From Chthoniobacter flavus (lineage in GTDB: Bacteria; Verrucomicrobiota; Verrucomicrobiia; Chthoniobacterales; Terrimicrobiaceae): a stretch of DNA of 64,000 bases. The DNA lies in assembly GCA_945883435.1 (NCBI GenBank), contig CAMCXK010000005.1:1-64000 (forward strand), given 5' to 3'. Made by a program: the position numbers and the translations under genes. Shown here piece by piece: positions 34,549 to 44,706 of this stretch (position 1 is the first letter of the stretch; each line of letters begins with the position of its first letter). The notes under the pieces were generated by a model. That model did not search any database and was not told the origin of the DNA. It worked only from the letters and a program-made list of their open reading frames with translations.

Positions 34549-36057
34549 TCAAAGACGGGCGGCAAAGTAGATGGAAACACCGGCAATAACAAGAACGGCG
34601 ATTCCAGCGTATATCCAAACCAGCGTTTGGTCGCTCAAACCGGAACCGCTGCTGAGTCGGGCGCGGGCTTCTTGGGCACTCCGAATCTTTCCCTTGCGGA
34701 GAAACCCGTCATAGTGGCGTTGGAGGAGGTGGGTTTCAACCTGCCGCATGGTATCCAAAACGACCCCCACAATAATGAGAAGACCAGTTCCACCGAAAAA
34801 CTGAGACGTCATATAAGGAACCTGCAGCGACTGGCTCAACAATTGAGGGAGGACGGCGATGGCCGTGAGAAAAATGGCGCCTGCAAAAGTGAGGCGGGTC
34901 ATGGTATAATCCAAAAAGTCGGCCGTTGGCTTACCCGGGCGCACCCCAGGGATGAACCCACCATGCTTCTTAAGGTCGTCAGCAATTTGGACTGGCTGGA
35001 ACTGAGTAGCCACCCAGAAGTAACTAAAAAAGAAGATCATCAAGGCGTAGAAAACGTAATGAAGCCATCCGTAAGTAAGCAGATTTGACAAATCCTGCGC
35101 CCAACCGACGCCCGGGAAGGCCATGTTGAGGATGGTTGACGGAAAGAGAAGTATGGCCTGGGCAAAAATGATCGGCATGACACCGGCATAGTTCACCTTG
35201 AGGGGCATGTATTGGGTTTGTCCTCCAAAGACCTTGCGTCCCACAACCCGCTTGGCATATTGGATACTGATTTTGCGCTGGGCTTGGGTTACGGCGATGA
35301 CTGCGGCAATCACAAAGATCAAAAAAGCGATCATCAAGACCAAAACAACCGGACTGACCGCCGATTGCGCCTCGGCAGCCGAAGGAACAAAAGTTCGCCA
35401 CGCTTGAATCAAACCTGCCGGAAGTTGGGCTAGAATGCCAACTGTGATGATGATCGACATCCCATTACCAATCCCCTTTTCGGTGATTTGGTCTCCGATC
35501 CACATCAGAAGCAAGGTTCCTGCAGTCATCGTGACAATCGTCAACACTTGAAAACCAAAGCCAGGGGTAGACACCAAAGGCAAACCGATTTTGTTGATGG
35601 TATCCATGATCCCTGGCAGAAACGGATTGGCTTGAGGGTTCTCAAAGGATTTCGCCAATAGATAAGCTTGAAAAATACACAGCCCGATTGTTGTGTATCG
35701 GGTGTATTGCATGATTTTTTGCCGCCCGCCATCTTCGCGTGAGAGCTTGCCCAGCTGAGGGATAACAGCTGTCAAAAGCTGCAGCATGATGGAAGCACTA
35801 ATGAATGGCATGACGCCCAAGGAAAAGAGCGCGCAATTTGACAACGCACCGCCACTGAAAAGGTTGAAAAGCGCCGCAACCCCACCGGCGGAGGCCGCAT
35901 CAGCCTTGTCCAAGAACCACTGACGAAGAACCTCCGCATTCACACCAGGCGTCGTGATCGCGGATCCCGCCCTCACGACGACGATAATCGCAAGTGTAAA
36001 GAGCACCCGGGCCCTGAGTTCCGGAATGCGAAAAATATTGGCGAAGGCTGAAATCAT
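34549..36057 (-). CDS. secY: Preprotein translocase subunit SecY
   Basis: 502 residues, ten predicted transmembrane helices. Marks include the plug region after helix 1 (GVNAEVLRQWF), FSLGVMPFISASIMLQLLT, YTTIGLCIFQAYLLAKS, QAQRKISIQYAKRV (cytoplasmic loop for ribosome/SecA contact) and LKVNYAGVMPIIFAQAILLFP. It is about 60 residues longer than the Escherichia coli protein; the extra length is in loops, notably around residues 30-55 and 140-170. It forms the protein-conducting channel with SecE and SecG. It sits between rplO and adk, as in many bacteria. Confidence 0.97.
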   Translation of the reverse strand: MISAFANIFRIPELRARVLFTLAIIVVVRAGSAITTPGVNAEVLRQWFLDKADAASAGGVAALFNLFSGGALSNCALFSLGVMPFISASIMLQLLTAVIPQLGKLSREDGGRQKIMQYTRYTTIGLCIFQAYLLAKSFENPQANPFLPGIMDTINKIGLPLVSTPGFGFQVLTIVTMTAGTLLLMWIGDQITEKGIGNGMSIIITVGILAQLPAGLIQAWRTFVPSAAEAQSAVSPVVLVLMIAFLIFVIAAVIAVTQAQRKISIQYAKRVVGRKVFGGQTQYMPLKVNYAGVMPIIFAQAILLFPSTILNMAFPGVGWAQDLSNLLTYGWLHYVFYALMIFFFSYFWVATQFQPVQIADDLKKHGGFIPGVRPGKPTADFLDYTMTRLTFAGAIFLTAIAVLPQLLSQSLQVPYMTSQFFGGTGLLIIVGVVLDTMRQVETHLLQRHYDGFLRKGKIRSAQEARARLSSGSGLSDQTLVWIYAGIAVLVIAGVSIYFAARL

Positions 36058-36100: not shown

Positions 36101-36562
36101 TTAAGCAACCGCTTCAGAGGGAAGGATGACATTTCCCCCAGATTTTTCGATTTTTTCGCGTGCTGTGGCACTCACTTCGTCCACTTGAATGGTCAAGGCC
36201 TTGGAAAGCTCGCCGCGACCCAAAATTTTAATCGCATCAAATCGGCCTTTTACCAAGCCGAGGTTGCGAAGAGACGCCTCGTTCACAGTGGCACCAGCCT
36301 CGAAGTTTTTATCAAGAGAATCGAGATTAACAACGCCGTAGGTGGTCTTGAATGCGGCATTGTTAAACCCACGCTTGGGAAGTTGGCGATAGATCGGCAT
36401 TTGACCGCCTTCGAAACCCAGACGGATACTGCCGCCGGAACGTGCTTTTTGGCCCTTATGCCCTTTGCCGGAAGTTTTTCCCTTGCCGGAGCTCTCACCG
36501 ATACCGAGACGCTTGCGGCGATGTTTGGCACCGGGGTTTGGTTTAATGGTATGAAGTCTCAT
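36101..36562 (-). CDS. rplO: 50S ribosomal protein L15
   Basis: 153 residues. The typical glycine-rich start is present (LHTIKPNPGAKHRRKRLG, GESSGKGKTSGKGHKGQKAR), followed by FEGGQMPIYRQLPKRGF and a C-terminal domain with VKGRFDAIKILGRGELSKAL. The gene directly follows rpsE with a 3-base gap; rpmD (L30), which normally lies between them, is missing. Confidence 0.97.
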   Translation of the reverse strand: MRLHTIKPNPGAKHRRKRLGIGESSGKGKTSGKGHKGQKARSGGSIRLGFEGGQMPIYRQLPKRGFNNAAFKTTYGVVNLDSLDKNFEAGATVNEASLRNLGLVKGRFDAIKILGRGELSKALTIQVDEVSATAREKIEKSGGNVILPSEAVA

Positions 36563-36565
36563 GGA

Positions 36566-37150
36566 TTAAGCATTAGCAGGTTCAACAGACTCAACAGCGG
36601 GGGCTTCTACGGCAATGGCCGCTGCTTTTGGGCGAAGGGTTTTCCCACGGAGACGGAATACTTCCTCGCGGGGGCGAAGCTGTGTCAGGGCGTCGATCGT
36701 GGCATTGACCACATTGGCGTGGTTGCTGGAACCTAACGATTTCGCCAAAACATCACGAATTCCAACGGCTTCAAGAACAGCACGCACTCCGCCACCGGCA
36801 ATGACGCCAGTTCCGGGAGAAGCCGGACGGAGAAGAACACGTCCTCCGCCAGATGCTCCGGTGACCATGTGAGGGATGGTATTCTCTTGAACCGCGATTT
36901 TCACCATGCGCTTCTTGGAGGCATCCGTGGCTTTGCGAATTGCTTCGCTCACCTCATTGGCTTTACCAAATCCGACACCGACTTTGCCTTTTTGATCGCC
37001 CGAAACGATCAAGGCGCTAAAGCTGAAGCGACGACCACCTTTTACAACTTTGGCACAGCGGTTGATGAAAACCACCTTTTCGGTTGTTTCCTTGGGTTCC
37101 CGCGGGGTTTCAGGACGCTGGGATTTTTTATCGCGAGGTTTCGGAGGCAT
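36566..37150 (-). CDS. rpsE: 30S ribosomal protein S5
   Basis: 194 residues. The double-stranded RNA-binding domain ([41 protein letters not shown]) and the C-terminal S5 fold ([46 protein letters not shown]) are complete. Both ends are longer than usual: about 25 basic/Pro-rich residues in front and an Ala/Glu/Val-rich tail behind. S5 acts in decoding fidelity. It lies between rplR and rplO. Confidence 0.97.
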
Positions 37151-37156
37151 AGGTAA

Positions 37157-37513
37157 TTAGAATTCGAATCCACCTTCGCGAGCGGCGTCGGCGAGAGCTT
37201 TGACTTTGCCGTGGTATTTGAAACCACCACGGTCGAAAACGACTTGTTTAATGTTTTGAGCGACCGCACGCTCAACAATCAATTTACCGACTTGAACGGC
37301 AGTTGCCACATTGGCACCTGTTCCTTTGTTGGCGCGCAGACTCTCCTCGGTTGTATTGACGGAGACCAACGTCTTTCCCACAGAGTCGTCAATGAGTTGA
37401 GCAGTAATGTGACGGCCCGAAAAATGAACCGCCAAACGGGGGCGGGATGATGTGCCAACCAACTTTTTGCGAAGGCGGGTGTGGCGGAGTTTACGTTTAT
37501 CAGTGGCTGACAT
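37157..37513 (-). CDS. rplR: 50S ribosomal protein L18
   Basis: 118 residues. L18 signature: RHTRLRKKLVGTSSRPRLAVHFSGRHITAQLIDD, then GANVATAVQVGKLIVERA and FDRGGFKYHGKVKALADAAREGGFEF at the C-terminus, the 5S rRNA-binding end. Standard position between rplF and rpsE. Confidence 0.97.
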   Translation of the reverse strand: MSATDKRKLRHTRLRKKLVGTSSRPRLAVHFSGRHITAQLIDDSVGKTLVSVNTTEESLRANKGTGANVATAVQVGKLIVERAVAQNIKQVVFDRGGFKYHGKVKALADAAREGGFEF

Positions 37514-37516
37514 AGG

Positions 37517-38056
37517 TTATTGAACGGTTTTGCCTTCCTTGCGGCGAATTTGCTCACCCACGAAGCGAACACCTTTGCCCTTGTAGGGTTCTGGCGGATA
37601 GAAAGCGCGGATATCGGCAGCGCATTGGCCGACGACTTGCTTGTCAATTCCTTCGATGGAGAGCTTCGTATTCTCGGAAACGGTCACTTTGACCCCCTCA
37701 GGAATTTGAAAAAGAATTGGGTGGGATTTACCGAGGCTGAGGTTCAAAATGGAGCCTTGAACGGCGGCTTTAAAGCCCACGCCATGGATCTCCATGTCGC
37801 GCTTGAAACCGGCACTGACACCTGTGACCATGTTGGCGAGAAGAGCTCTGGAAAGTCCATGCATGGCTTTTTCCTCGCGTGAGGCACCAACCGTCGACAG
37901 GCTCAAAGAGTCGCCGTCCACTTTGGCGCTCACAACTTGGGGCAGTGTCCAATGAAGAGAGCCTTTTGGACCCTCGACTTGGACGCATTGATTTTCACCA
38001 ACCGTGACTTTAACCTTGGGGGGCAAACTGATGGATTTTTTTCCAATTCGCGACAT
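37517..38056 (-). CDS. rplF: 50S ribosomal protein L6
   Basis: 179 residues with the two L6 repeats and the C-terminal motif YKGKGVRFVGEQIRRKEGKTVQ. Starts MSRIGKKSISLPPKVKVTV as usual. L6 lies near the sarcin-ricin loop. Gaps to both neighbours are 3 bases. Confidence 0.97.
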   Translation of the reverse strand: MSRIGKKSISLPPKVKVTVGENQCVQVEGPKGSLHWTLPQVVSAKVDGDSLSLSTVGASREEKAMHGLSRALLANMVTGVSAGFKRDMEIHGVGFKAAVQGSILNLSLGKSHPILFQIPEGVKVTVSENTKLSIEGIDKQVVGQCAADIRAFYPPEPYKGKGVRFVGEQIRRKEGKTVQ

Positions 38057-38059
38057 AAC

Positions 38060-38449
38060 TTACCAGATGTAGGCGAGAAGCTCCCCGCCGATGTTTTGTT
38101 TACGGGCATCATGCCCAGTGAGAATTCCACGCGAAGTGGAGAGGACAGCAATCCCCATTCCACCAAGCACCCTTGGAATATCCGTCGCTCCGACATAGCG
38201 ACGCAGACCTGGGCGGCTCACCCGCTTGAGGCCGGAAATCGCGCTGGTGCGGTTTACGTATTTATTTTGGATTTTGATCGCTTGACGGCCCTCGTTATTA
38301 ACGAGTTCAGCATCTTTGATGTAGCCCTCTTTTTTGAGAATCTGAGCCAAATCACTCTTGAGTTTGGAGTAAGGAATCTCCAAGGTGGCTTGACCGGCCG
38401 AGGTCGAGTTGCGAAGCCGGGTCAACATGTCGGCAATGGGATCGTTCAT
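38060..38449 (-). CDS. rpsH: 30S ribosomal protein S8
   Basis: 129 residues. MNDPIADMLTRLRNSTSAGQ at the start, PGLRRYVGATDIPRVLGGMGIAVLSTSRGILT and ARKQNIGGELLAYIW at the end match S8. It follows rplE after 6 bases; the rpsN (S14) gene that normally lies in this gap is absent. Confidence 0.97.
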   Translation of the reverse strand: MNDPIADMLTRLRNSTSAGQATLEIPYSKLKSDLAQILKKEGYIKDAELVNNEGRQAIKIQNKYVNRTSAISGLKRVSRPGLRRYVGATDIPRVLGGMGIAVLSTSRGILTGHDARKQNIGGELLAYIW

Positions 38450-38455
38450 GATGGA

Positions 38456-39055
38456 TTATTCCGCAGGAGTTTCAGTCGCCGGCTTGGGGGCCGCTGGCTT
38501 TTTGGCTTTGTCCGAAAACGGCATACCGAGTTCACTGAGGAGAGACTTGGCCTCCTCGTTGGTTTTTGCAGTAGTGACGATAGTGACGTCGAAGCCAATA
38601 TTCTTTTTAATACGATCCAGCTCGATTTCCGGGAAGATGGATTGATCGGCGACTCCGAGGGTGTAGTTGCCTTGGCCATCAAACGCCCGGGGCGAAACTC
38701 CGCGAAAATCGCGAATCCGCGGAAGTGCGGTCTTGATAAGACGCTCTAGGAACTCATACATGATTCGGCCTCGAAGCGTGACTTTAGCTCCAATGGCTTG
38801 ATCTTGGCGAAGCTTAAAGTTCGAAATAGCCTTTTTGGAGTTGGTGATCACAGGGCGTTGGCCCGTGATTGTGGTCAGTTCGGTGCGGGCGATCTCAAGC
38901 GACTCCTTGACATCATTTGCCGAGCCCACACAAGTGTTGACGACCACCTTCGAGATTTTCGGAATTTGGTGAATGTTTTCGTAACCGTGCTTGGATTTCA
39001 AAGCCGGCACGACTTTTGTTTTGTATTCCGAGAGAAGTTCGGGTTGTTGTGTCAT
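38456..39055 (-). CDS. rplE: 50S ribosomal protein L5 with C-terminal extension
   Basis: 199 residues. Complete L5: NIHQIPKISKVVVNTCVG, TGQRPVITNSKKAISNFKLR, ATLRGR-type loop and FPEIELDRIKKNIGFDVTIVTTAKT near the end. The usual length is about 180; about 20 extra residues form a Lys/Ala/Pro-rich tail. L5 contacts 5S rRNA and P-site tRNA. Confidence 0.97.
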   Translation of the reverse strand: MTQQPELLSEYKTKVVPALKSKHGYENIHQIPKISKVVVNTCVGSANDVKESLEIARTELTTITGQRPVITNSKKAISNFKLRQDQAIGAKVTLRGRIMYEFLERLIKTALPRIRDFRGVSPRAFDGQGNYTLGVADQSIFPEIELDRIKKNIGFDVTIVTTAKTNEEAKSLLSELGMPFSDKAKKPAAPKPATETPAE

Positions 39056-39068
39056 TGTCCGTTAATTA

Positions 39069-39341
39069 TTAGGCAGCTTTTGAACCGCCTTTTTTAAATG
39101 GGGCAGCCGCTTGGATGAGTTTGACATTGGAGACATGAATGGGTCCCTCTTTCTCAAGAATAGCCCCGTTCGGATGATCTTGGGACTTACGCTGATGCTT
39201 CTTGATCATGCGAACGCCTTCAACAACAACTTGAGACTTTGCAGCGCGGATCTCAACAACTTTGCCTGTCGCGCCCTTGTGATTTCCAGAAATGACTTCG
39301 ACTTGGTCGCCTTGACGAACATGAAACTTGGGCTTGCTCAT
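39069..39341 (-). CDS. rplX: 50S ribosomal protein L24
   Basis: 90 residues with the KOW motif [21 protein letters not shown] near the start and [27 protein letters not shown] afterwards. L24 initiates 50S assembly on 23S rRNA. Its start overlaps the rplN stop by 4 bases. Confidence 0.96.
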
Positions 39342-39703
39342 AGGACCTCCGGTGCCAGGGAAATAATCTTCATGAAGTTTTTCTCGCGCAGTTCTCGAGC
39401 CACGGGCCCGAAAATCCGAGTGCCGCGAGGATTCATATCTTTATCGATGATCACGATCGCATTGTTGTCAAAACGGAGGGCGGAGCCATCCTCGCGACGA
39501 ACAGGTTGTTTGGTTCGCACAACGACAGCGCGCACAACGTCTCCCTTTTTCACGGTGCCACCAGTGGAGGCCTCCTTGACGTTGGCAGTGATGACATCAC
39601 CGATGGCGGCATTTGCCGTGGCTTTGCCAATGACACCGATCATGGTCGCCATGCGGGCTCCGGTGTTGTCGGCAACGTCAAGTCTGGAACGAATCTGAAT
39701 CAT
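39338..39703 (-). CDS. rplN: 50S ribosomal protein L14
   Basis: 121 residues, [19 protein letters not shown] at the start, [21 protein letters not shown] and [26 protein letters not shown] at the end; fully typical. It lies 5 bases after rpsQ. Confidence 0.97.
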
Positions 39704-39708
39704 AGCAA

Positions 39709-39987
39709 TTAATGTTTAAGGACCTCAACAAGGCGCCAGCGCTTCGTTTTGCTGAGCGGTCGGGTTTCCATGATACTCACGCGATCGCCGATCTGAGCCT
39801 CATTTTTCTCATCATGAGCATGGAACTTGGTAACGTGTTTTGTAATTTTTCCAAATTTGGGATGCGGCACACGCGTGATCGATTTAACGACGATGGTTTT
39901 GTCCATTTTGTTGGAAACAACCTCGCCGACACGAACTTTGCGAAGCCCACGGGAATCGGATTCGGATGGTGCTTGGGACTCTTGCAT
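39709..39987 (-). CDS. rpsQ: 30S ribosomal protein S17
   Basis: 92 residues. The OB-fold core [38 protein letters not shown] and [19 protein letters not shown] is typical; about 15 polar residues precede it. It binds 16S rRNA helices 7 and 11. It follows rpmC after 3 bases. Confidence 0.96.
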
Positions 39988-39990
39988 GGA

Positions 39991-40188
39991 TTATTTCGAG
40001 GAGGATGATTTTGTGCTGAGAACAGTTTCCACCCGAGCGATGTTGCGGCGGGCAATGCGAATCAAGTGAGGACGTTCCAATTGACCGCTTTGCTGTTGGA
40101 TACGAAGGTTGAAAAGGTCTTCTTTAAGTTCCCGTTTTTTTGAAGCCAACTCCTGCGGCGTGAGTTCTTGAATCTCTTGAATTTTCAT
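39991..40188 (-). CDS. rpmC: 50S ribosomal protein L29
   Basis: 65 residues, two helices: IQELTPQELASKKRELKEDLFNLRIQ and HLIRIARRNIARVETVLS. Typical of L29, at the polypeptide exit. The gene is 2 bases after rplP. Confidence 0.95.
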   Translation of the reverse strand: MKIQEIQELTPQELASKKRELKEDLFNLRIQQQSGQLERPHLIRIARRNIARVETVLSTKSSSSK

Positions 40189-40190
40189 AA

Positions 40191-40610
40191 TCAGGCAGCG
40201 TGGTGGCGTGTCAAGAAGCGTGTGCGAACAGGAAGTTTGTTGGCAGCCAAACGCAAGGACTCACGGGCAATGGTTTCGGAAATGCCATCCAACTCAAAAA
40301 GAATGTTTCCAGGGCGGACAACGGCCACCCAGTATTCAGGCTGGCCTTTTCCTTTACCCATTCGAGTTTCAGGAGGTCGAGCGGTAACACTTTTGTCCGG
40401 GAAAATTCGAATCCAAAGTTTGCCTTTGCGTTTCATGTTACGGGTTAGTGCCACGCGGGCAGCCTCAATTTGAGTATTGGTAATCCATCCGCGCTCCAAA
40501 GTCTGAAGACCGAATTCCCCGAAGTCGATGGTTGTATTCCGTGAAGCCAGACCCTTGCGGCTACCCCGCTGAGTCTTGCGATACTTCACACGTTTTGGCA
40601 TCAATGGCAT
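40191..40610 (-). CDS. rplP: 50S ribosomal protein L16
   Basis: 139 residues. [58 protein letters not shown] and [19 protein letters not shown] are diagnostic of L16, which organises the A-site region. Located between rpsC and rpmC. Confidence 0.97.
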
Positions 40611-40633
40611 ATGCTCTTGTCTTTCTTAGTTAA

Positions 40634-41338
40634 TCAGTTTGAGGCAGCGACAGGCTCTGGAGAGGAGCGATCCGGTGAGCTCGGTCGGCGATCGGAGGCA
40701 ACCTCCGGTTGCTCCTCGACCTTCTTACAAATCCAGCATTTGACCCCGATTTTACCGGCGACAGTCTCGGCCTCCGTGAAGCCATAATCAATGGGAGTGC
40801 GCAGCGTGTGAAGGGGGACTTTTCCTTCGTGGTAACGCTCGGTGCGCGCGATTTCCGCTCCACCAAGTCGACCTGCAACTCGGATTTTGATGCCCAAGGC
40901 TCCTTGATCCATAGTGAGCTGAACTGCGCGCTTCATGGCGCGGCGAAAAGAAATGCGACGCTCCAATTGAGAAGCGACATTTTCTGCGACCAATTGAGCA
41001 TCGATGTCGGGATTTTTTACTTCCACGATATCAATTTTAACTTGCTTGCCTCCGGCCAAGTCACTGACTTCCTTCGTCAAACCCTCAATCTCTTGACCCC
41101 GCCGACCGATCACAACACCTGGGCGGGCTGTGTGGATTGTAACGCGGAGGCTGTTCCATGCCCGCTCAATGACGATTCGCGAAATCGCAGCTTGTTTGAG
41201 CTTCTTCTTGAGGACATTGCGGATTTTTTCGTCTGCAATCAGGTAGTCCGCAAAATCTTTGCGTGACGCGTACCATTTGGAACCCCAGTCGCGTGTGACT
41301 GGGAGCCGAAAACCGATTGGATTAACTTTTTGGCCCAT
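40634..41338 (-). CDS. rpsC: 30S ribosomal protein S3
   Basis: 234 residues. [18 protein letters not shown], the KH domain with [20 protein letters not shown], and the C-terminal domain [21 protein letters not shown], then [19 protein letters not shown], are complete. A polar Ser/Pro-rich tail of about 25 residues extends the C-terminus. S3 forms part of the mRNA entry helicase. Confidence 0.97.
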
Positions 41339-41356
41339 ATGAGGTGGTTGGATAAA

Positions 41357-41764
41357 TTACTCCGCTGTTGCAGGTGCGGACGATGTTTTCTTCTTGGATT
41401 TTTTGGGTTTATCTTCGCGACGCACAATTTCGATTTCATCAGTCACTGTGACAGAGATGTGGCTGGTGCGCTTGCGGATGGGTCCTGCACTTCCGCGGGC
41501 TTTGGGTTGAAAACGTTTTAATGTGGGTCCTTCCCCAACGACCGCTTCCTTGACCACCAATTCGGATGGATTTGCCTCATTGTTATTTTCGGCGTTGGCG
41601 ATGGCGCTTTTTAAGGTTTTGAGGACCAGCCCAGCCGCTTTTTTGGGCGTAAAGCGAAGCAAGTCCAAGGCGTCGGAGGCCGGCATTCCTTGAATCGCAC
41701 GGGTGACCTCACGAGCCTTGAAGGCGGAGATTTTCGCATACCGATGTATTGATTTGACCTGCAT
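41357..41764 (-). CDS. rplV: 50S ribosomal protein L22
   Basis: 135 residues. AFKAREVTRAIQGMPASDAL, FTPKKAAGLVLKTLKSAIANAENN and RFQPKARGSAGPIRKRTSHISV are diagnostic; the loop reaches into the exit tunnel. A Lys/Ser/Ala-rich tail of about 20 residues follows. It lies 15 bases downstream of the inserted coiled-coil gene, where rpsS would normally be. Confidence 0.97.
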   Translation of the reverse strand: MQVKSIHRYAKISAFKAREVTRAIQGMPASDALDLLRFTPKKAAGLVLKTLKSAIANAENNNEANPSELVVKEAVVGEGPTLKRFQPKARGSAGPIRKRTSHISVTVTDEIEIVRREDKPKKSKKKTSSAPATAE

Positions 41765-41779
41765 ATGTTCGTTTAGTTG

Positions 41780-42508
41780 TTAAATTTTGATTTTGACAAG
41801 ATCTCCAATGAGCGGTTTGGAATCGCGTTGGAGATAAGATTGAATCACAGCTGCAGAGAGGTTCTCCCTCACTTCGATAATCGTCGCTTCTGCTTGGCAT
41901 TCATTGCCACGATACACTTGAATTGGATGACCAACTTTCAAGGATTTGTCGGTTCCTGCGTTAAGAACGATGAGTGACTTCGGGAGATCGACGTGAAGAA
42001 TGACAATTTCGGGATCTCTATTATTTTGGGTGGAAGCTGGCGAAGATAGAGAGGCATTGATCTTGCGGAGGCACTCTTCGACTCTCGCGCGAATTGGCGG
42101 GGAAGGGAATTGTCCATTTTCTGATGCAAGAACCAACACTTCACTTATTTGGAGCATTAGGGAGGCAAAGCGCTCGTTTTGATTTTTGAGACTCTTTAGT
42201 TCTTTAATGAATTCCAAATTTTCAAAACTTTCCCCCGCGGAACTGAGGTTTGTTGCGGCGAGTTGTTTTTCAGCCGCTTCTTTCTTGAGTGCAAGGGATA
42301 CGACAGTCTCGGTGAGCGAATGGATCGTTTCCTCCAATAGTAAGATGCGTTCCTGCAATGGAGCTTCATCAGGAGTCGACAAAGCTCCGCCGAGATCCGG
42401 ATTGTCCGGCAGACGTGATTCAAAATTTGTCAAAGAGCGTTTGTCTTGAGCACCACCGCTTGAGCAGCAGGCGAAGACAAGAAAAGCCGCCAAGGCGACT
42501 TTCCTCAT
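41780..42508 (-). CDS. Exported coiled-coil protein inserted in the ribosomal operon
   Basis: 242 residues, no recognised family. The N-terminus looks like a signal peptide (MRKVALAAFLVFACCSSGG); FAC could be a weak lipobox. After a linker, about residues 50-130 are a coiled coil (LQERILLLEETIHSLTETVV and KELKSLKNQNERFASLMLQ). The C-terminal 75 residues form a compact strand-rich domain: LPKSLIVLNAGTDKSLKVGH, IQVYRGNECQAEATIIEVRE, GDLVKIKI, a pattern like the FlgT C-terminal/SH3-like barrel seen in exported Verrucomicrobia proteins. It is placed between rpsS and rplV, which are adjacent in nearly all bacteria, with a 1-base gap upstream and 15 downstream, so it is co-transcribed with ribosomal genes. 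The gene is AT-richer than its flanks. Likely periplasmic; role unknown. Confidence 0.72.
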   Translation of the reverse strand: MRKVALAAFLVFACCSSGGAQDKRSLTNFESRLPDNPDLGGALSTPDEAPLQERILLLEETIHSLTETVVSLALKKEAAEKQLAATNLSSAGESFENLEFIKELKSLKNQNERFASLMLQISEVLVLASENGQFPSPPIRARVEECLRKINASLSSPASTQNNRDPEIVILHVDLPKSLIVLNAGTDKSLKVGHPIQVYRGNECQAEATIIEVRENLSAAVIQSYLQRDSKPLIGDLVKIKI

Positions 42509-42509
42509 G

Positions 42510-42788
42510 TTATTTTGTCACTTTGGCGGTGTGAGAACCGTGTTTCTTGAAAATGCGTGTTGGGGAAAACTCTCCCAACTTGTGGCCAACCATATTTTCC
42601 GTTACAAAAACCGGAATAAAAGTCTTTCCGTTGTGGACGTTGAAGGTATGTCCAACAAAATCAGGAGTGATGGTGCTCCGTCGGGACCAAGTTTTAATTG
42701 GTTTCTTGCTGTTGGATTCGTTGAGGCGGTCGATTTTATCGAGTAGCTTCCACTCGACATATGGACCTTTTTTCAGTGAACGAGCCAT
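42510..42788 (-). CDS. rpsS: 30S ribosomal protein S19
   Basis: 92 residues: [63 protein letters not shown]-type core, typical of S19 in the 30S head. It is followed after 1 base by the inserted exported gene instead of rplV. Confidence 0.97.
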
Positions 42789-42790
42789 GA

Positions 42791-43639
42791 TTAATTTTTC
42801 GATTTGGAGTTACGGCGCTGAACGATAAACGTATCACTTGGTTTGTGTTTGCGGCGGGTTTTAAAACCTTTTGCAAGCTGTCCCCAAGGAGACATCGGAT
42901 GGTGGCGCCCGCCACCGCCTTTGCTCTTGCCCTGACCGCCGCCCATTGGGTGGTCGACAGGGTTCATGACCATGCCTCGGACATGCGGACGAACTCCCAA
43001 CCAACGACTGCGACCGGCTTTCCCAGACGAGACGTTCATGTGGTCGGAATTTCCAACTTGCCCGATCGTCGCGTAGCAATTTTCATTAATTCGCCGGATT
43101 TCACCAGATGGGAGCTTGATCAAAGCATATCCACCCTCGCGGTTTGCCAAAATGGCAACGGAACCCGCGCTGCGGATAATCTGACCACCACGACCTGGAA
43201 TGAACTCAATGTTGTGAACTGACGTGCCAAGCGGAATCGATTTCAGAGGCAGAGCGTTTCCCACATTGGGTTCTGCTTTTTCACCAGCCATGAGCTTGGA
43301 TCCAACCTGAAGACCGTTTGGAGCTAAAATGTAAGCCTTTTCTCCATCGGCATATTGCAGAAGGGCAATCCGGGCCGTGCGGTTAGGATCGTATTCGATC
43401 GCGATGACTTCTGCAGCCACCTCCCGCTTGCAGCGCTTGAAGTCGATCACTCGGTAGCGGCGTTTGTGCCCCCCCCCGATGTGGCGCATGGTGATGCGGC
43501 CTTGGTTGTTACGGCCGCCTGTGCGCTTGATCGGCTCGGTCAGTGACTTTTCCGGCTTGCTTTTCGTGATTTCGCCAAAATCCGGGAGGATCTTGAAGCG
43601 GGCCGCCGGCGTGAGAGGTCGAAAGGTTTTAAGTGCCAT
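42791..43639 (-). CDS. rplB: 50S ribosomal protein L2
   Basis: 282 residues, with [43 protein letters not shown] and the peptidyl-transferase-proximal [21 protein letters not shown] with its conserved His. Complete and ordinary. Gaps of 2 bases to both neighbours. Confidence 0.98.
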
Positions 43640-43641
43640 GG

Positions 43642-43929
43642 TTAGACGAGGTCCAGTTTTTCACCGGCTTGGAGAGTGACGATCGCTTTTTTCCAATCCG
43701 GGCGTTTTCCAAAATCTGCGCGGCGTTCACGTTTTTTCTTTCCGATGAAGTTCGCGGTATTGACACCCACAACCTTCTTTTTGAACAACAACTCGACGGA
43801 ACGCTTGATTTGAATTTTGTTGGCTTCCGGATGAACCCGGAAAACATACTTGTTGAGCTTCTCGGAAAGCAATGTGGCTTTCTCGGTGAGAAGGACTGTT
43901 TTGATGGTGTCTTGAGGTTCCAGTGTCAT
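43642..43929 (-). CDS. rplW: 50S ribosomal protein L23
   Basis: 95 residues: [53 protein letters not shown] and [18 protein letters not shown] match L23, the docking site for trigger factor and SRP. It overlaps rplD by 4 bases. Confidence 0.97.
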
Positions 43930-44543
43930 TTCGAGAGCCTTTCAGAAATTTTATCGAGCGCCGACTTGGTCACGATAATTTTGTCGAATGAGAGGAGTTG
44001 CTCGGTATTGACATCAGAGGCCCGGGCAAGTTGGGCGACCTGCACATTGCGAGCCGCTTTGAGAGTATTTTCGGTGAACGTCTCGTGAACGATCAAAGTT
44101 CTCTTCGAATCCGGCGAGACAGATTTCAGGAGGGCAACGAACTGCTTGGTTTTGGGCTCGGAGACTTGGAAATCCTCGACCAGAATGACATCGCTCAAAA
44201 CAATTCGGGCGCTCAGGGCCTTGCGAAACGCAAGACGCTTGACTCCCTGAGGAATGTTTTTGGTGTAATCGCGGGGCTTGGGTCCATGGGCCACACCGCC
44301 GCCAACCCAGACAGGGCTGGAGAAATAACCGGCGCGCGCACGGCCAGTGCCTTTTTGACGCCATGGCTTGCGGCCTGAAAGATTGACATCGCCTTTGGTC
44401 TTGGCGCAGGCCGTGCCGCTGCGGCGCGCGGCTTGGATCGCGACGACGACATCATGCACCGCCTGGTTGCCCTTCGATTCCTCGGTGACAAGGTCGATAC
44501 GGGCGTCGGAGGCCAATGAAGGTGTGAGAACAGTGGAACTCAT
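43926..44543 (-). CDS. rplD: 50S ribosomal protein L4
   Basis: 205 residues from the ATG at 44543. Diagnostic: ARRSGTACAKTKGDVNLSGRKPWRQKGTGRAR, SPVWVGGGVAHGPKPRDYTKNI and FDKIIVTKSALDKISERL. L4 lines the exit tunnel and, in Escherichia coli, represses its own operon. Here it is the first gene of the cluster: rplC and rpsJ, normally just upstream, are absent, and a promoter with a leader of about 160 bases precedes it. The frame upstream of the ATG has no L4 similarity. Confidence 0.96.
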   Translation of the reverse strand: MSSTVLTPSLASDARIDLVTEESKGNQAVHDVVVAIQAARRSGTACAKTKGDVNLSGRKPWRQKGTGRARAGYFSSPVWVGGGVAHGPKPRDYTKNIPQGVKRLAFRKALSARIVLSDVILVEDFQVSEPKTKQFVALLKSVSPDSKRTLIVHETFTENTLKAARNVQVAQLARASDVNTEQLLSFDKIIVTKSALDKISERLSK

Positions 44544-44706
44544 GGTTGCGGAGCAAACCCCCGAAACCGGAGGCCGCTGAAGCGGTCCGCGCTGATCTGG
44601 AAATTTGCGTTGGTGAACATTGTGATTTCGTTGGCAAAGGCGGTGTGGAGCCGATCGGAACAAGTTTGTCGATCATGGCGCCGCATGCAGGCGACCCTTT
44701 GCGGGA
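44544..44706 (-). promoter_or_regulatory. Untranslated leader of the ribosomal operon
   Basis: About 160 bases of leader without a convincing gene. A compact GC stem (GGCCGC ... GCGGTC, 44572-44587, loop TGAA) lies 30 bases before the rplD start. Ribosomal leaders often carry structures that bind L4 or another ribosomal protein to repress the operon; whether this one does cannot be decided by eye. The short frames here show no family similarity. Confidence 0.4.

Follow-up and report, generated by a model that had tools for sequence, protein, structure and literature searches.

A predicted exported coiled-coil/β-barrel protein is encoded between rpsS and rplV in the S10 operon of Chthoniobacter flavus and across much of the Verrucomicrobiota

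A gene for a predicted exported coiled-coil/β-barrel protein lies inside the S10 operon of Chthoniobacter flavus, between the genes for ribosomal proteins S19 (rpsS) and L22 (rplV). The gene, here termed X, is old and occupies the same place across much of the phylum Verrucomicrobiota; it is no recent accident. The gene order of the S10 operon is one of the best conserved in bacteria. X, which is non-ribosomal, predicted to be exported, fast evolving yet selected, and missing from many lineages, offers a natural test of what keeps genes in ribosomal operons and of a possible tie between envelope growth and the supply of ribosomes. The reading that we favour, with somewhat better than even confidence, is that the X product is an old envelope scaffold, vertically inherited as a member of the S10 operon, the supply of which may be tied to ribosome synthesis. 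A search of the literature, supplements aside, found no description of X, or of the rpsS–rplV region in Verrucomicrobia; the available portions of PMC3444138 and PMC2837039 do not mention X.

The window, i.e. the whole stretch of DNA analysed, comprises 64,000 nucleotides (contig CAMCXK010000005.1, positions 1 to 64,000). X occupies 41780-42508 of the minus strand and encodes 242 residues, its assignment as a gene being based on the ORF, on homologs in the same place in relatives, and on dN/dS values. The order on the minus strand is rplB (L2; 42791-43639, assigned from the ORF sequence), rpsS (42510-42788; Pfam PF00203, E 3.2e-38), X, rplV (41357-41764; PF00237, E 1.8e-39), then rpsC (S3; 40634-41338; PF00189 and PF07650). 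The rpsS stop is separated from the X start by 1 nt, and the X stop from the rplV start by 15 nt, so the coordinates, strand and spacing given in the first-pass annotation are exact. Its description of X as AT-richer holds in comparison with rplV and rplB (46.8% GC for X, 51.9 and 54.7% for these neighbours), but not with rpsS (44.6%).

In the window, rplD (43926-44663) is the first gene of the ribosomal cluster, and the S10 operon is split in this genome: rplC (L3, identified by a Pfam match) is on contig 43 (L267, about 879-1848), preceded by an S10-like ORF, as judged by eye, and followed by a terminator-like stretch. Over 36101-44663 of the window, a clear Shine-Dalgarno sequence is absent from the 22 nt before the start of most ribosomal genes, rplX being an exception.

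Homologs of X are present, with one match each, in 47 of 58 genomes of the same genus, family and order, and the ORF is therefore not due to chance. Loci were obtained for 29 of the 47 matching genomes and for the C. flavus genome itself (n = 30); X lies between rpsS and rplV on the same strand in 29 of these, the 30th (L015) ending before rplV. Identity to the window protein in these loci is about 28-33% for X and 74-100%, mostly >85%, for S19. A scan of genome contigs with the single window sequence found no relative. A profile (A1) made from an alignment of 29 X sequences, leaving out one with a truncated start (L026), matched 66 named contigs, most of which carry an annotation as Spartobacteria, Chthoniobacterales or Verrucomicrobia, including C. 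flavus Ellin428 (L064). Of these contigs, 63 have both flanking genes with an ORF between them, and the other three are cut by contig ends; in L090 the pair encloses only a shortened ORF.

Among 237 genomes of the class with completeness of at least 90%, the A1 profile matches 150, i.e. 40 from the same genus, family or order (the C. flavus genome included) and 110 others. Loci were sampled from 60 of these 110, mostly those with stronger matches, and 59 of them have X in the rpsS–rplV interval, the exception (L185) being a weak match elsewhere. Akkermansia muciniphila (G134, taken as BAA-835) carries a 236-residue X between the pair (L147), so that the question of why X stays there is testable in a cultured organism. 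In a survey of the phylum, which placed S19 and L22 in 144 genomes (S19 found in 140, L22 in 141), 20 loci were taken from outside the class, 16 chosen for a longer rpsS–rplV distance and four for a short one. In 15 of the 16 long-gap loci, which come from other families of the phylum, there is an ORF that matches the X profile (E 4e-20 to 4e-5); the remaining one (L252) has a 214-nt gap without an X ORF, and the four short-distance loci have no X. This is the synteny comparison that the first-pass annotation had proposed, and it places X between the pair at depth in the Verrucomicrobiota; the accompanying premise that rpsS–rplV adjacency is nearly universal fails within this phylum, where other genomes carry X there or split the pair. 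Splitting is seen in several phylum genomes (f59, f64), in which rpsS and rplV lie on separate contigs or are widely spaced along a single chromosome, e.g. at 1.62 and 2.53 Mb in G353, and represents an unusual break in the S10 operon.

Trees of X and of the joined S19, L22 and S3 sequences were compared for 143 loci. Five loci (L199, L220, L085, L090 and L049) were excluded from the trees and from the junction statistics on account of no X, a remnant, a wrong-frame ORF, a frameshift or a truncated start; L097-L125, which contain many repeats, were also omitted, with the loss of several order loci that have no other copy, and in 22 of L001-L030 X is identical to that of a later locus. The two trees have 78 of 140 splits in common, compared with no more than 2 in any of 200 tip shuffles, and the rank correlation of their distances is 0.79, compared with at most 0.17 in 500 permutations. 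The simplest reading is vertical descent at a high rate. X is under purifying selection, with dN/dS values of 0.05-0.27 in all nine of the pairs, chosen as close, for which it was calculated; the ribosomal genes have lower values in almost every comparison. We infer that X was present in the ancestor of these classes and was then lost repeatedly. One of the two origins initially suggested for X, a recent tolerated insertion, with its extreme form of a degenerating ORF limited to one strain, could account for the identity of only about 30% between X and its relatives beside strongly conserved neighbours. It is rejected, its probability being negligible, because the place of X is conserved across the class and also in further Verrucomicrobiota families, because X has been inherited with the operon, as the congruent trees show, and because it is widespread and under selection.

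Many genomes of the class do without X. From 80 class genomes with no match or a weak match, S19 was located in 77 and 60 loci were sampled. In 40 of the 60, rpsS and rplV are 0-44 nt apart, and in seven more a gap of 86-149 nt contains no ORF, from which it follows that X is dispensable in many genomes. Eleven of the 60 hold an X-type ORF, nine of these being of 112-127 residues (L218, L221, L223, L231, L238, L240, L241, L242 and L244) and two being divergent forms of 174-180 residues (L215 and L225), of which L215 falls below the A1 threshold (E 1e-3) and is included because it resembles L225. The short forms, of which L221 was read, comprise a signal peptide and the barrel only, as do four further short forms between rpsS and rplV (L181-L184). 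There is no recognisable X in the 314-nt gap of L220 or the 553-nt gap of L199, and no remnant of X was found in the gap-only loci with a wide profile, which was trained on L215 and L225, such that its matches to these two are circular. Two 0.9-Mb genomes of family f7 (G031, with the 149-nt gap of L217, and G040, that of L220) are without X, and G047, a 2.5-Mb genome of the same genus, keeps it; the loss in the smaller genomes looks like decay during genome reduction.

These losses bear on the main rival to the favoured reading, which is that a useful envelope protein entered the operon once and rides on its strong transcription, its place being without functional meaning. The operon persists in many genomes that have lost X without visible harm, and X evolves at several times the rate of the genes beside it (mean tree distance 3.12, vs 0.82 for the ribosomal set). 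Its codon use is also unadapted: the codon use score of X is 0.681, within the ranges of both the ribosomal genes (0.676-0.823) and the other genes (0.655-0.759), and is no closer to the ribosomal genes than other genes are, so that high expression of X is not supported. However, a homolog is retained at this place in all but one of the 60 class loci outside the order, with no relocation, and the clean losses, which leave gaps of 0-44 nt, suggest that the site is no trap. Such a passenger is thus possible, but we consider it the less probable account.

The domain layout of X was largely anticipated by the first-pass annotation. The N terminus (residues 1-21; 42446-42508, minus strand) is signal-peptide-like as judged by eye, and the hydrophobic start is conserved across the aligned homologs. 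A linker connects it to the region that AlphaFold2 predicts to be helical and probably coiled coil (residues 48-155; 42044-42367, minus strand), with helices at 48-88, 95-130 and 137-155. The proposed coiled coil depends on this model, which has a mean pLDDT of 73.7 and a pTM of 0.36. The C-terminal part, previously described as SH3-like, is predicted to be a β-barrel (residues ~165-242; 41783-42016, minus strand) on the basis of its strands, high pLDDT and structural matches to FlgT, and it is the constant part of X, being retained in the 112-127-residue forms. At the other extreme of length, the L172 homolog has 558 residues, with a long low-complexity Pro/Thr-rich insert ahead of the coiled coil. 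Window X has no Pfam match to a ribosomal protein family, the only match being to PF05859 (E 0.041), and five X members searched against NCBIfam gave no match above cut-off.

Foldseek ranks two structures of FlgT highest for the X model (E 1.2e-4 and 1.3e-4). In VIA-align comparisons, the X barrel superimposes on the C-terminal domain of FlgT with a Z score of 12.0 (8z5n; rmsd 2.1 over 76 residues) or 11.1 (3w1e). The N-terminal barrels of F1-ATPase are just behind, at about 10.8, and the fold is therefore a common one that proves no function. X thus shares its barrel fold with the C-terminal domain of this flagellar T-ring protein (PF16538, FlgT_C), to which 22 of 29 X members have weak Pfam matches (best E 1.1e-4). 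The curated cut-off of 27 bits is not reached by window X, which gave no match, by its own genome (none at E ≤ 1), or by Ellin428 (15.7 bits). By contrast with FlgT, X has predicted helices or coiled coil where FlgT has its N-terminal and middle domains, and is found beside ribosomal genes; no other FlgT family appears among the matches listed for the 29 members (25 of 51 families).

MreC, the rod-shape protein, consists of a coiled coil followed by a barrel, a layout that X shares, and the X barrel of Ellin428 matches MreC weakly (PF04085, 14.7 bits; cut-off 28). Identity of X with MreC was rejected, as the match is below cut-off and the C. flavus genome has a separate gene as MreC (134.6 bits, contig 2).

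A third protein of interest is TsaP, the secretin-associated protein of type IV pili (for background see PMC7545093), which is exported, as X is predicted to be, and to which the X barrel region has a weak profile match (3jc8, E 0.5). TsaP combines a LysM domain with a barrel of this type, whereas no LysM domain was detected in X, either among the matches listed for the 29 members (25 of 51 families) or in diverse members. X might, like TsaP, serve a type IV pilus or a secretin machine as an accessory. PilT exceeds its cut-off in 40 of 40 genomes that have X and in 32 of 40 that do not, a comparison uncorrected for shared ancestry, the eight X-less genomes with PilT below cut-off belonging to two clades (six of f20 and two of f13), and the 0.9-Mb genomes without X are also without PilT. 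The lack of a LysM domain among the listed families argues against this role, as does the retention of PilT in those 32 genomes without X. Moreover, in a second set, three genomes keep X without PilT over cut-off (G047, G209 and G055, the last being 73% complete and the place of its X unconfirmed), so X is no strict companion of retractable pili. A role as a pilus or secretin accessory is, overall, unlikely.

The junctions flanking X are typically short, with a median of 8 nt before X (≤30 nt in 157 of 174 loci) and 20 nt after it (≤100 nt in 171 of 174), near-duplicates being included in both counts. The coding strand within 41200-43000 gave no site resembling a promoter or a terminator. The tight junctions suggest coupled translation of X with its neighbours, and the proposal made at first pass, that X may couple the synthesis of the envelope to the production of ribosomes, agrees with the export signal, the shared strand, the tight junctions and the lack of a promoter- or terminator-like site. 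On the favoured reading of X as an operon-borne envelope scaffold, X would be transcribed together with the ribosomal protein genes, with translation coupled through the junctions. The product would be exported via its signal peptide, or in some lineages held by an N-terminal anchor, would probably self-associate through its helical/coiled-coil part, and might present the small FlgT-C-like β-barrel in the periplasm. The position between rpsS and rplV would then cause the supply of X to follow ribosome synthesis, and hence growth rate.

Arrest peptides such as SecM control secA, and X could by analogy act in cis, export targeting of the nascent chain controlling how rplV and the downstream genes are translated. 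An export signal that precedes essential genes across a tight junction is in keeping with such a sensor, but the conserved part of X is a folded barrel rather than a short end motif, X forms differ greatly in length, and many genomes do without X, making regulation of this type very improbable. It is also doubtful, though conceivable, that X constitutes a link between ribosome and envelope peculiar to the Verrucomicrobiota, in which the nascent export-targeted chain would bring the S10 mRNA to the membrane, enabling mutual sensing and coordination of growth.

A precedent for the location of X, whether as a scaffold or otherwise, is provided by secY (34549-36057 of the window, read by eye), which sits in the spc operon and, like X, has a fixed place in a ribosomal protein operon although it belongs to the export/envelope side and not to the ribosome. 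Whereas secY is essential and almost universal, X is limited to part of one phylum as far as searched, and is absent from many of its genomes.

The C. flavus genome (G000) also encodes a paralog of X, on the minus strand of contig 17 (L266, 4894-5814; E 2.5e-7 to the X profile). The paralog resembles X in having an N-terminal hydrophobic stretch, a coiled coil and a barrel of the same kind, but differs in that it lies outside the ribosomal operon, near an rsmH-like gene.
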